From: Candidatus Nanohaloarchaea archaeon
GTDB taxonomy: Archaea; Nanohalarchaeota; Nanosalinia; Nanosalinales; Nanosalinaceae
DNA length: 64,000 bases
Reading direction: 5' to 3'
Assembly: GCA_013343275.1 (NCBI GenBank)
Contig: CP046106.1
Coordinates: 372,001-436,000, forward strand
The translations under genes and the position numbers were made by a program. This document shows, in pieces, positions 4,396 through 64,000 of the stretch. The first letter of the stretch is position 1, and each line of letters opens with the position of its first letter. The notes beneath the pieces are model-generated. The model saw only the letters and a list, made by a program, of their open reading frames with translations. It was not told where the DNA came from and did no database searches.

Positions 4396-4555
4396 TGGAC
4401 TCTGTGGGATTTGAACCCACGGCCTCCTGCTATTTCAGGCCTTTACACTGATCAAGGTTCCTACATAATCCATGCGAAGCATGGTTTGTTGCGTGCCGCA
4501 CTCAGCGTAACGAGGCGTGCGAAGCCGGCGTTCCGCCAAGCTGAACTAAGAGCCC
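4396..4555 (-). tRNA. tRNA-Ala(CGC) with an 86-base intron
   Basis: On the minus strand the acceptor arms are GGGCTCT and AGAGTCC with A73. The D stem is GTTC/GAAC and the T arm is GTGGG TTCAAAT CCCAC. The anticodon loop begins TTCGCA, then an intron runs from 4517 down to 4432, and the 3' exon resumes A GCAGG. Helix GCCT/AGGC beside both junctions fits a bulge-helix-bulge splice site at 37/38. The anticodon stem CCGGC/GCAGG has a G-A mismatch at its centre, which is odd. The arms outside the anticodon match the tRNA-Ala(GGC) at 5992. The intron carries the shared hairpin element described separately. Confidence 0.85.
4468..4512 (-). repeat. tRNA-associated hairpin element, copy 1
   Basis: Lies inside the tRNA-Ala(CGC) intron, sense to the tRNA. 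It consists of TTACGC, a spacer, CACGCAA, then the perfect hairpin CCATGC-TTC-GCATGG (4470-4484). The same layout occurs at 45147-45190 and 49297-49340, and the hairpin alone recurs at 47318-47332. Confidence 0.7.
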
Positions 4556-47250: not shown

Positions 47251-47383
47251 GAGCCTGTAGCTCAGCGGGACAGAGCATTCGGTTCCTAGGAACTTCTGTA
47301 AGTTCCATCAACAGGAACCATGCAATGCATGGATCTAGTTCGGAAATACCGAGAGGTCGAGGGTTCAAATCCCTCCAGGCCTG
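47251..47383 (+). tRNA. tRNA-Arg(CCT) with a 59-base intron
   Basis: Acceptor GAGCCTG/CAGGCCT then G73; pairs 1-72 G-T and 2-71 A-C are non-standard. D stem GCTC/GAGC. Anticodon stem TTCGG/CCGAG with loop TTCCTA...A (anticodon CCT). Intron 47289-47347, bounded by helix GAAC/GTTC that fits a bulge-helix-bulge. T arm GAGGG/CCCTC with TTCAAAT. Confidence 0.85.
47318..47332 (+). repeat. tRNA-associated hairpin, copy 4 (hairpin only)
   Basis: CCATGC-AAT-GCATGG inside the tRNA-Arg(CCT) intron, preceded by CAACAGGAA as copies 1 and 2 are preceded by CAACAAA and CAAGAAA. Sense to the tRNA. Confidence 0.6.
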
Positions 47384-49371: not shown

Positions 49372-49509
49372 GCGGAGGTTGCCGAGTGGTCAAAGGCGCA
49401 GCGTTCAGGACACCGTCTCGTTCAACGTGACGGTTTGAGAAGGCTTCTGCCTTCGACGGGAAATGCGCTGTCCCTTAGGGGTTCGCAAGTTCGAATCTTG
49501 CCCTCCGCA
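49372..49509 (+). tRNA. tRNA-Leu(CAG) with a 55-base intron
   Basis: Acceptor GCGGAGG/CCTCCGC with A73. Anticodon stem CAGCG/CGCTG, loop TTCAGG...G (anticodon CAG), intron 49410-49464 closed by CCGTC/GACGG. Long variable arm TCCCTTAGGGG marks the Leu class. T arm GCAAG/CTTGC. The intron also holds hairpin GAAGGC-TTCT-GCCTTC. Confidence 0.9.
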
Positions 49510-60817: not shown

Positions 60818-61096
60818 TTAAGCGCTTGGGCCTTTGAAATGGCCTTCTTCCTCGTTTTCCGTGTTGCGGAATACTTCCTCTCTGTCAAGAGTCTCCTCTT
60901 CCTCGTCTTTACGAGTCTTCGAGTCGACATCTACAGGATGGAAGGCAGGTTCTACATCCTCTGTATCTACCTCATCAAGTGATGAGAACTTCTCAAGGAT
61001 GTTATCGAAATCCTCCTTGAACTCCTCGGCCTCACCATCTTCAAGTTTGATCCTTGCATTGTCGGCCACCTTCTTTACTGTTTCAATATCTACCAT
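60818..61096 (-). CDS. gatC: Aspartyl/glutamyl-tRNA amidotransferase subunit C
   Basis: 92 residues. Begins VDIETVKKVADNARIKLEDG (GatC helical start) with DNILEKFSSLDEVDTEDVEP and the tail segment AFHPVDVDSKTRKDE. Stabilises GatA against GatB. First gene of the minus-strand cluster. TATA CTAAAAGTTTC about 28 bases upstream. Confidence 0.92.
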   Translation of the reverse strand: MVDIETVKKVADNARIKLEDGEAEEFKEDFDNILEKFSSLDEVDTEDVEPAFHPVDVDSKTRKDEEEETLDREEVFRNTENEEEGHFKGPSA

Positions 61097-61317
61097 AGGT
61101 ATTTATTCCGGTTGAAACTTTTAGAAGAATATCGATGAAACACAGCCACAACCTCTATTTCATGTGGAGGGCTGATTATTGAGAGATTTCAGAACCTGTA
61201 AGGCTATTTTAGAGATAATATGAACGGTCGTGAACAATCAGTGTTAACTGCGAGCGAACATCGATTGTATGGCTAAATGGCCGAAGATTTATAAACAAGC
61301 TTAGAAAATGTTAGAGT

Positions 61318-61500
61318 ATAAGACTTGATCGTTGTTCGTGGTGGGACACGAACTGGGATCGATCGTTTCAAACTCATTGGGAAGTGAGTTTGAGTCAGAC
61401 TTGAATTGGGAAGTTCAAGTCGGGAATCGTATTATCGAAACATGTTGGGAATTTGGTTCAATTAGTTCTATCGTAGAATTAGCTTTGCCGCTTTAAAAAG
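61318..61500 (+). ncRNA. Candidate RNA of repeated GGGA-loop hairpins upstream of ftsZ
   Basis: TATA box TTTATAAA (61289-61296) predicts a start near 61318. Then: TTCGTG-GTGGGA-CACGAA (61335-61352), enclosed by GATCG/CGATC with an internal loop CTGGGAT; CAAACTCA-TTGGGAAG-TGAGTTTG (61369-61392); GACTTGAA-TTGGGAAG-TTCAAGTC (61398-61421); single-stranded CGGGAATC; and TTGGGAAT in a weaker stem near 61444. Six GGGA in about 110 bases, all in loops or spacers, with unrelated but fully paired stems. No open frame. It may be an independent RNA or a long ftsZ leader. Confidence 0.6.
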
Positions 61501-61535
61501 GTTAGGTTAAGCCTTGCCGGGGGCGGGTCAACACA

Positions 61536-62615
61536 ATGGAATCTATAATCGACAACACGCCAGACTCTCAGAATGAAGGCCAGAATGCCACAGAAAATCT
61601 TGATGATGTAAAAGATGCTAGAATCCTAGTAGTAGGAATAGGAGGAGCTGGCAACAACCAGGTAACCAGAATCCAGAACAAAGAAGTAGAAGGAGCTGAT
61701 ACTGTCGCTATCAACACAGACAAGCAGCACCTAGAGATGTCCTCCGCCGACAGAAAAATACTTGTAGGAAAAGACCTGACACGAGGTCTCGGAGCAGGAG
61801 GAAAACCTGAGAAAGGCGCTCGCTCCGCTGAAGAAAACAGGGCCGAACTAAGAAATCTATTCAAAGAAGCCGACATGGTCTTCCTCACCGCAGGAATGGG
61901 AGGAGGAACAGGTACAGGCGCAGCCCCAGTACTTGCAGAGATCGCAAAGAAAGAGGACTGCATCGTAATCGGAACAGTCACAATGCCATTCAGTATTGAA
62001 GGCGCACGAATGAGCAAGGCAGAAGACGGCCTCTACAAACTAAGACAACATGTCGACACAGCAATCGTAATTGAAAACGACAAACTACTTGATATCGCAG
62101 GCGACATGCCTCTCGACCAGGCATTCGGAGTAGCTGACGAACTGATCACAACAATGATCAAGGGAATCACAGAGACAATCTCCAAGCCTTCACTCGTCAA
62201 CCTGGACTATGCAGATGTCCAGGCAGTAATGAACGAGGGCGGAGTCGCAGTAGTCGGATACGGAGAGTCAGATACAAACAATAAAGGAAAAGAAGCGATC
62301 CATGAGGCCCTCTCCAATCCATTGCTCGATGTAGAGTTCGACGGAGCAAACGGAGCACTACTCCATGTTGCAGGAGGCGAGGACCTGACACTCAACGAGA
62401 TCAACGACGTCGGCCAGCTGGTAACGGACAAGCTCGACAATCAGGCCCAGGTAATCTGGGGCGCACGAATCCGCGACGACCTGCAAGGAAAACTACAGGT
62501 AATCTCAATTATCACAGGCGTGAAATCACCTTACGTCCTGGGAGAACTTGAGGAAGACGAAGAGACCGAGGTAAAAGGAGACGTAAACGACCTCGGACTT
62601 GAAGTCATGAAATAA
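61536..62615 (+). CDS. ftsZ: Cell division protein FtsZ
   Basis: 359 residues. Tubulin/FtsZ motifs: ILVVGIGGAGNNQVTRI, GMGGGTGTGAAPVLAEIAK (GTP-binding T4 loop), and T7 loop region VNLDYADVQAVMNEGGVAV (catalytic Asp). N-terminal 28 residues are acidic and disordered; tail is short. The first gene after the GGGA-loop RNA. Very few AGGCCT hexamers, likely from high-expression codon use. Confidence 0.97.
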   Translation: MESIIDNTPDSQNEGQNATENLDDVKDARILVVGIGGAGNNQVTRIQNKEVEGADTVAINTDKQHLEMSSADRKILVGKDLTRGLGAGGKPEKGARSAEENRAELRNLFKEADMVFLTAGMGGGTGTGAAPVLAEIAKKEDCIVIGTVTMPFSIEGARMSKAEDGLYKLRQHVDTAIVIENDKLLDIAGDMPLDQAFGVADELITTMIKGITETISKPSLVNLDYADVQAVMNEGGVAVVGYGESDTNNKGKEAIHEALSNPLLDVEFDGANGALLHVAGGEDLTLNEINDVGQLVTDKLDNQAQVIWGARIRDDLQGKLQVISIITGVKSPYVLGELEEDEETEVKGDVNDLGLEVMK

Positions 62616-62619
62616 ACTC

Positions 62620-62718
62620 GAAAGCCGGAGGCTTTCTGGGTTACCAGAAATTCTCCAAATTTCGAAAAGGCTGGAGATCGGAGATCTTCTGCTTCACAGA
62701 AAATCTCTGATTTTCGGC
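62620..62718 (+). terminator. Hairpins after ftsZ
   Basis: GAAAGCC-GGA-GGCTTTC (62620-62636) directly after the stop, then AGAAAATC-TCT-GATTTTCGGC (62698-62718). Likely ends or protects the ftsZ message. Confidence 0.6.
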
Positions 62719-62740
62719 AAGGAGGCCACCCGGCCTCATT

Positions 62741-62910
62741 AAACCTATATTACGGAGGAAGGCCTCTACTCGAAAACCCCTCCCCCCCCCTTCGACAGGC
62801 TTTCCTCCCTAAAAACCTATATTTCAACAGGCGAAGGCTACCAAGACCTCCACGCCACCGACAAAAACCCCTCCCCCCCTTTGTTTTGGCGTGGAGGCCA
62901 GCCTTTCGCC
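62741..62910 (+). repeat. Tandem C-rich-loop hairpins
   Basis: Two units about 72-76 bases apart, each starting AAACCTATATT. Hairpin 1 (62754-62808): arms GGAGGAAGGCCT and AGGCTTTCCTCC, loop with CCCC-T-C9. Hairpin 2 (62830-62910): arms GGCGAAGGCT with CCTCCACGCCA, paired to TGGCGTGGAGG and AGCCTTTCGCC, loop with CCCC-T-C7. Both loops carry AAAACCCCT. The arms differ in sequence, so pairing rather than sequence is kept. No gene in the 62616-62982 gap. Confidence 0.65.
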
Positions 62911-62982
62911 ACTTATTCTCAATTATTTCTTTTCGATCGCTAAACCAAAAAGTTCTTTACAGTTAACAAACAAAACAGAGCT

Positions 62983-63486
62983 ATGAAAGCTGAGAACGAG
63001 GCTATTCTTGGTCTTTCAGGCCTTCTAGCCTTGCTGGTTCCGGTAACTTTCTACACTACTGAAACACCGCTACTGGCAGGACTTTTCTCACTGGCCTCAC
63101 TTGGCATATACAGGTACTGTGACAGAAAGATGGCTATGTCCAGCCTAACCGACCTGGACGAGCTGAAAAGCCTTTATGTTCAGAAAGGTATAGAGGCCAT
63201 TATACTTCTGACTGCTGTTGCATCGCCGGTAGTTGATAAAAATGTCGCGGTATCCGTGCTCCTACTGGTTTTTGTAAGCGAAACCATTCGTGAAGAGGCA
63301 GAAGCTGTCTCGAAGACCGTACTGACATCTTACGCAGGGTTCGAGATCAGGGCAGCAGTCCTAGGTATAGGCATGGTCTTCCAGTCAGTGGCAAGTTACA
63401 GCCTGTTCTATGCGCTTGTTCTGGTAGGAGTCCTGACTGTCTACGAGCTGGGAAGAACTACTCATATCAGCCTGGAAAATATCTGA
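62983..63486 (+). CDS. Hypothetical membrane protein
   Basis: 167 residues with four to five spans (GLSGLLALLVPVTFY; AGLFSLASLGIYRYC; ILLTAVASPVV; VAVSVLLLVFVSETI). A loop in the first half (CDRKMAMSSLTDLDELKSLY) is charged. Ends in LGRTTHISLENI. No family recognised. TATA-like AACCAAAAAG upstream. Confidence 0.6.
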   Translation: MKAENEAILGLSGLLALLVPVTFYTTETPLLAGLFSLASLGIYRYCDRKMAMSSLTDLDELKSLYVQKGIEAIILLTAVASPVVDKNVAVSVLLLVFVSETIREEAEAVSKTVLTSYAGFEIRAAVLGIGMVFQSVASYSLFYALVLVGVLTVYELGRTTHISLENI

Positions 63487-63562: not shown

Positions 63563-64000
63563 ATGAAGGCACCAATATGTAACGTCTGCTTGAAGAGCGA
63601 TGTGCTCTGCAGCAGTTGCAAGGAGAAGTACGAGAACGGTGAAATATCCGATCTGGAAATCGAAATCTCAAGGACACTACAGGATTTAAGCAACGAATAC
63701 GGCTCGCTTAGAGACTCAGAAATCAAACACGCATACGACACAGAAAACGTCGTAGTAATCGTCACAGCAGAGGGAGACGGAGCCAAAGTAGTTGGAAGAA
63801 GCGGAGACATCGTCAAGAAACTCGCAGACGAAATCGGCAAATCAATCAGAGTAGTTGAAAAAAGCGAAGACGACAAAGAAGTCATCAAAGGCCTGCTCAG
63901 CCCTGCTGAAATAGAATCAATCAACACAGTTTTCAGCCCTGACGGCCAGTACAAGAAGATCGTCGTCGACGAAGACTACGAAGGAAAGATCAACCTCTCC
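63563..64000 (+). CDS. KH-domain protein with N-terminal zinc motif, NusA-like (partial)
   Basis: 146 residues before the window ends. N-terminus carries ICNVCLKSDVLCSSCKEKY, two Cys pairs for zinc. A KH domain follows: ENVVVIVTAEGDGAKVVG then RSGDIVKKLADEIGKSIRVV (GxxG loop region). This order is that of archaeal NusA-like RNA-binding proteins. The rest of the gene lies beyond the right edge. Start ATG 63563. Confidence 0.85.
   Translation, partial: MKAPICNVCLKSDVLCSSCKEKYENGEISDLEIEISRTLQDLSNEYGSLRDSEIKHAYDTENVVVIVTAEGDGAKVVGRSGDIVKKLADEIGKSIRVVEKSEDDKEVIKGLLSPAEIESINTVFSPDGQYKKIVVDEDYEGKINLS

Follow-up and report, generated by a model that had tools for sequence, protein, structure and literature searches.

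Small RNAs of Firmicutes with C-rich loops (LhrC and RsaE type) expose UCCC or CCCC loops able to bind G-rich start regions. The RNAs CsrB/CsrC and RsmX/Y/Z (e.g. PMC7652899) combine many hairpins with unlike stems and one common G-rich loop motif. In the icaR mRNA of Staphylococcus aureus, a UCCCCUG motif in the 3′ untranslated region (UTR) pairs with the Shine-Dalgarno sequence of the same mRNA (PMC3868564). Here, we analyzed an array of hairpins with a shared GGG loop upstream of the cell-division gene ftsZ in a 64,000-nucleotide (nt) stretch of a nanohaloarchaeal genome (contig CP046106.1, positions 372,001 to 436,000; the window). The array, first pointed out in an earlier note on this DNA, is genuine and larger than first noted: it constitutes one half of a pair, the other half being a C-tract element in the 3′UTR of ftsZ. 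That these are two conserved RNA structures, located on the ftsZ strand and restricted to ftsZ, is well supported.

The hairpins lie in the last part of the 440-nt intergenic region between gatC and ftsZ, from the TATA box TTTATAAA to ftsZ (coordinates in Table 1). Folding of the region 61310-61500 as plus-strand RNA gave −62.1 kcal/mol, compared with −42.6 ± 3.8 kcal/mol for shuffled sequences (z = −5.1; 0 of 200 shuffles as good). TGGGA occurs 46 times on the plus strand of the window; four copies are found in hairpins with stems of at least seven, and three of these belong to the array. Shuffling of the whole window produced a mean of 0.3 and a maximum of 2 TGGGA copies in such stems, and none of 5000 shuffles of the array region contained even two hairpins of this kind. 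Two hairpins with unlike perfect stems and an identical loop TTGGGAAG, as well as a nested hairpin, had been described in the earlier note. All three are present (hairpins 2, 3 and 1, respectively), the paired stems of the former two being eight to nine bases long and spanning, with their loops, 61368-61393 and 61398-61421. Further GGGA copies also exist (61356-61359, 61422-61425 and 61447-61450) but lie outside the strong conserved hairpins of this genome. The degenerate fourth unit of the window corresponds to well-formed hairpins in several relatives, and the position of hairpin 2 is taken in relatives by CTCGU-UUGGGC-GCGAG.

Conservation was assessed in 28 genomes of one order, i.e. the whole phylum as sampled. 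Inspection of the ftsZ loci by eye and by script revealed the array 5′ of the gene in each of the 28 genomes (G026 was counted via pattern match only). A triple TTGGG(C/A) pattern was detected at 34 places, 33 of them upstream of ftsZ; the remaining match, in G019, is apparently coding. Since the stems diverge, in most family members DNA similarity recovers the region at its two ends only. One DNA match (L022, G021:C14) was spurious, and the true array of that genome sits upstream of its ftsZ. At one position, stems are wholly different among genera with the loop kept (actcgt-TTGGGC-gcgagt, gtctcg-CGGGCA-cgagat and gaacttg-GTGGGA-caagttt). Over 114 copies of the motif [TC]GGG[CA], flanks paired in 61.5% of cases, compared with 38.9% ± 1.9% (standard deviation) for permuted arms (0 of 5000 permutations as high). 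Mismatches in these flanks included 24 G-U and 5 A-C combinations, an excess indicating that the structure is formed by RNA of the ftsZ strand. An array structure on the opposite strand was rejected, as the fold is weaker there and the G-U excess is on the plus strand. In 30 distinct hairpins, which had been picked for pairing, all six pairs showed compensatory change (88 compensatory cells; covariation 1.24 vs 0.24). Thus, the pairing statistics and compensatory changes place the proposed constant loops on varying stems under selection throughout the phylum, and the loops are conserved in close relatives.

The loops read UUGGGC (C-type) in most of the 28 genomes. A-type loops (UUGGGA or GUGGGA) occur in the genus of the window (G000 and G001) and in G002, G005, G012 and G017, although one loop of G002 deviates with GGGGC. 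All three loops are UUGGCG in G021, a member of another family, and G014 has four C-type loops and one A-type loop. On the FtsZ tree, from which G002 was dropped, A-type loops need three changes, and a single origin was not retained, although a single A-type clade is still compatible with the tree (p-AU 0.14). Loops within a genome switch together, hence something specific must read them, and this concerted switching argues against a simple GGA/CsrA logic. The shared motif had been given as GGGA; a constant loop was indeed found, but what is conserved at its core is UGGG followed by a base that depends on the lineage, so that the resemblance to GGA binding is coincidental. In agreement with the suggestion of a partner other than CsrA, CsrA (PF02599) was detected in 0 of 28 genomes, with Escherichia coli, B. 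subtilis and T. maritima as positive controls. Titration of CsrA was rejected, given this absence and loops that are not GGA in most relatives. CsrB is the nearest architecture described, but the array does not belong to this class: its loops are UGGGC in most members, GGA being confined to the clade of the window, and it occurs as one copy fixed 5′ of ftsZ and paired with a 3′UTR element.

This second element occupies the ftsZ 3′UTR (62616 to ~62920), which folds at −131 kcal/mol (z = −9.1) into long hairpins with big loops holding CCCCUCCCCCC. The motif CCCYTCCCCCC occurs twice in the 916-kb genome, both times in these loops, and 28 of the 50 CCCYTCCCCC sites in the family lie just 3′ of ftsZ (counted from coordinates). 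In nearly all nanohaloarchaea, the C-tract is unpaired; it is usually enclosed in a hairpin or in some larger stem structure, and the stems are not alike. Hence, ftsZ is bracketed by a G-loop array on its 5′ side and C-loop hairpins on its 3′ side. The exposed C-rich loops recall the LhrC/RsaE type, but here they are part of an archaeal mRNA 3′UTR. No Rfam model matched at gathering score in 61100-63000, and a permissive scan gave one insignificant match (E = 0.43); a known riboswitch, leader or small RNA family was therefore discarded. A gene 3′ of ftsZ (63563-64000) encodes a protein with a NusA-like KH domain (PF13184, 3.1e-12) and a cluster of cysteines near its N terminus. The gene is found downstream of ftsZ in nearly all genomes of family f1 with enough sequence and is not found there in f2-f5.

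A survey beyond the phylum began with ~30 other archaea and was extended to ~65 relatives of two DPANN genomes. GGGC-type repeats 5′ of ftsZ together with C-tracts 3′ of it recurred in f9, f29, f33, f38, f48, f49 and others. In f44, GGGACU replaces the GGGC-type motif, and the repeated motifs of AT-rich DPANN genomes (CGGGCU, AGGGCAC) lack stems. In three genomes, the 3′ C-tract is the exact complement of their own ftsZ Shine-Dalgarno sequence, with a perfect match of 10-12 bp (AAGGGGGAUGAA in G044, GGAGGGUGAAA in G082 and AGAGGAGGGG in G084). Counting near-exact complements of the own start region as well, 8-12 bp of anti-Shine-Dalgarno sequence were noted in the 3′UTRs of L080 (G044), L158 (G082), L127 (G084) and L079 (G040). 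Outside the phylum, duplex energies between the ftsZ start region and the own 3′UTR were better than with permuted partners (p = 0.002, this and the other p values serving as guides only, since species are not independent). The nearest mechanism is that of icaR, with its C-rich 3′UTR motif opposite a G-rich 5′ region and its counterpart in these exact complements. The ftsZ element nevertheless differs from icaR: it has a multi-hairpin GGG array far upstream of the start and C-tracts in long hairpins, it is archaeal and conserved phylum-wide and beyond, and the nanohaloarchaeal start region showed no special complementarity to the 3′UTR.

The aligned upstream regions contain several promoter-like elements. 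A separate transcript from about 61318 had been proposed, and a likely promoter (P1) was found at the matching place; from archaeal promoter spacing, transcription is predicted to start at ~61316-61320. Between gatC and the P1 TATA box (61210-61275), and at the same place in f1 relatives, TGAAC(A/G) is repeated, in many cases at a spacing of one helical turn (10-11 nt), and is accompanied by inverted TGTTCA copies; these repeats are likely an operator of some regulator. In contrast to the array stems, the arms of the palindrome TTCTATCGTAGAA keep their sequence across f1; it is therefore more likely a DNA operator, apparently belonging to the ftsZ promoter, or a short hairpin. Downstream of it, TTTAAAAA is a candidate for either a second TATA box (P2) or a hairpin loop. 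In G053, the same element is enclosed as a loop by a perfect 10-bp stem; the stem around it covaries in some genomes and is disrupted in others, and was not accepted as proof of a single transcript of leader and ftsZ. In the aligned upstream regions of most genomes, the array is not separated from ftsZ by a T-rich terminator.

As a working model, which we favor tentatively and with less than even confidence, the ftsZ mRNA carries a cis-regulatory RNA in two parts, of which the array is the 5′ one, and the GGG loops of this part interact with the 3′ C loops, either directly or via a protein. We infer here co-transcription of the array with ftsZ, contact between both halves and an effect on expression. 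Transcription from P1 would give a ~200-nt leader with three to six hairpins presenting UGGG(C/A) in constrained loops, and the end of the 3′UTR would form one or two long hairpins with C-tracts in their loops. In the simplest form of the model, the multivalent GGG loops would dock on C-rich loops, either those of their own ftsZ mRNA or those of a second one, and closure of the resulting ring or dimer would set translation and stability of the message. Release or exchange of the docking, against the Shine-Dalgarno sequence where one exists, would then set FtsZ output; in DPANN with such a sequence the C-tract can cover it, and the G-array would therefore compete for the C-tract. Docking is supported by the co-occurrence of G-array and C-tract and by the available four-base matches between loop and tract, i.e. 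GGGA/UCCC in the clade of the window, UGGG/CCCA in f2-f5, UUGG/CCAA in G021 and CGGG/CCCG in G040. Possibly, though with some doubt on our part, the multivalent 5′ G-loops join the 3′ C-loop hairpins head to tail, either in cis or from one message to another, as an mRNA “zipper” in nanohaloarchaea and related DPANN.

Several observations speak against such docking. Loop complementarity to the own tract was not clearly better than to tracts of other genomes (p = 0.12 for nanohaloarchaea, 0.025 for others and 0.06 for all), and lineage-specific complementarity was thus set aside as weak. Most C-type relatives in the family of the window pair only the three bases GGG/CCC, which leaves the fixed post-GGG base of each genome unexplained. 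Some DPANN genomes possess one element without the other, and P2 could give an ftsZ mRNA without the array. Moreover, start-region/3′UTR pairing within nanohaloarchaea was no better than with permuted partners (p = 0.74) and is unsupported there as the whole story. Given the weak own-partner complementarity beyond GGG and the unexplained base, a specific RNA-binding protein is nearly as likely as docking. An RNA-binding protein other than CsrA, or an RNA, acting in trans may read the UGGGC/UGGGA loops; the array would then provide multivalent binding sites within the ftsZ leader, and the 3′ C-tract would be read separately, e.g. by a KH-domain protein. The post-GGG base is common to the loops of a genome and switches jointly, from GGGC to GGGA in the genomes with A-type loops and separately in f44, and from GGGC to GGCG in G021, which fits co-evolution with one specific reader. 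The stemless repeats of AT-rich DPANN point in the same direction, as the motif there matters more than the stem. The NusA-like KH protein is a candidate for this RNA-binding partner, judging from the position of its gene in f1, but the gene does not adjoin ftsZ outside f1. A trans reader alone would also leave unexplained why the G-array has a C-tract counterpart at the same gene.

A separate small RNA, transcribed from P1, ending before P2 and titrating a regulator in trans with CsrB/RsmZ-like function, appears improbable. It would account for the many stems with one loop, for a strong and conserved P1 and for the second promoter-like element TTTAAAAA and the palindrome, both conserved, just 5′ of ftsZ. 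However, it is at odds with the scarcity of terminators between array and ftsZ, with the lack of CsrA and with the constant adjacency to ftsZ, which would be dispensable for an RNA acting in trans. A conserved 266-nt intergenic small RNA has been described in a halite nanohaloarchaeon; its position is not given in the main text of that report, and it may or may not be the array (PMC7002113). The earlier note had left a choice between an archaeal titration RNA and an ftsZ leader control element. Control of ftsZ itself is favored by a location specific to this gene and by the matching element in the 3′UTR, and a separate titration RNA is not supported. Nanohaloarchaea are thought to follow a salt-in strategy, and the GGG loops, whose runs number four to six per array in many genomes, might form a G-quadruplex favored by high cellular K+. 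We consider this very improbable, as the G021 loops carry GG alone (UUGGCG) and one loop reads GGA or GG in some relatives. Moreover, each genome keeps its flanking bases fixed, a constraint not required for a quadruplex.

Apart from the ftsZ locus, three Rfam tRNA matches of 133-160 nt missed by ARAGORN (47251-47383, 49372-49509 and 4396-4555) are probably intron-bearing tRNA genes.

Table 1. Positions of the array, the 3′UTR hairpins and adjoining features in the window.
Feature	Position	Strand	Evidence or remark
gatC	60818-61096	minus	divergent from ftsZ
TATA box TTTATAAA of predicted promoter P1	61288-61295	plus	aligned upstream regions; same place in most relatives
Hairpin 1: lower stem GATC, internal loop, stem GTTCGTG/CACGAAC, apical loop GTGGGA	61327-61360	plus	folding, arrays of relatives
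Hairpin 2: stem TCAAACTCA/TGAGTTTGA, loop TTGGGAAG	61367-61394	plus	folding, shuffles, arrays of relatives
Hairpin 3: stem GACTTGAA/TTCAAGTC, loop TTGGGAAG	61398-61421	plus	folding, arrays of relatives
Degenerate fourth unit, TTGGGA at 61445-61450	61424-61459	plus	folding, arrays of relatives
Palindrome TTCTATCGTAGAA / TTCTAnnnTAGAA, then TTA; just upstream of TTTAAAAA	61466-61478	plus	aligned relatives
Conserved A/T element TTTAAAAA, 38-76 nt 5′ of ftsZ	61492-61499	plus	aligned relatives
ftsZ, 359 aa	61536-62615	plus	Pfam Tubulin 3.9e-46, FtsZ_C 8.5e-32
3′UTR hairpin: stem GGAGGAAGGCCT/AGGCTTTCCTCC, loop with CCCCTCCCCCCCCC at 62777-62790	62754-62808	plus	folding, genome motif count, relatives
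3′UTR hairpin: stem GACCTCCACGCC/GGCGTGGAGG, loop with CCCCTCCCCCCC at 62868-62879	62830-62910	plus	folding, genome motif count, relatives
T-rich stretch 3′ of the C-tract hairpins, candidate transcription terminator	62912-62934	plus	sequence; similar runs in relatives

Literature searches found no account of the ftsZ array element, which seems to be an RNA device for the control of cell division that has not been described before. How archaea regulate cell division after transcription has hardly been explored, and few regulatory RNAs are recognised in DPANN. Here, a large paired 5′/3′ RNA structure is present at one essential gene in every sampled member of the phylum, with traces in further DPANN groups, and the concerted loop changes offer a natural handle for finding its partner. 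If the zipper arrangement holds true, expression of the division ring would depend on the valency of RNA-RNA contacts.
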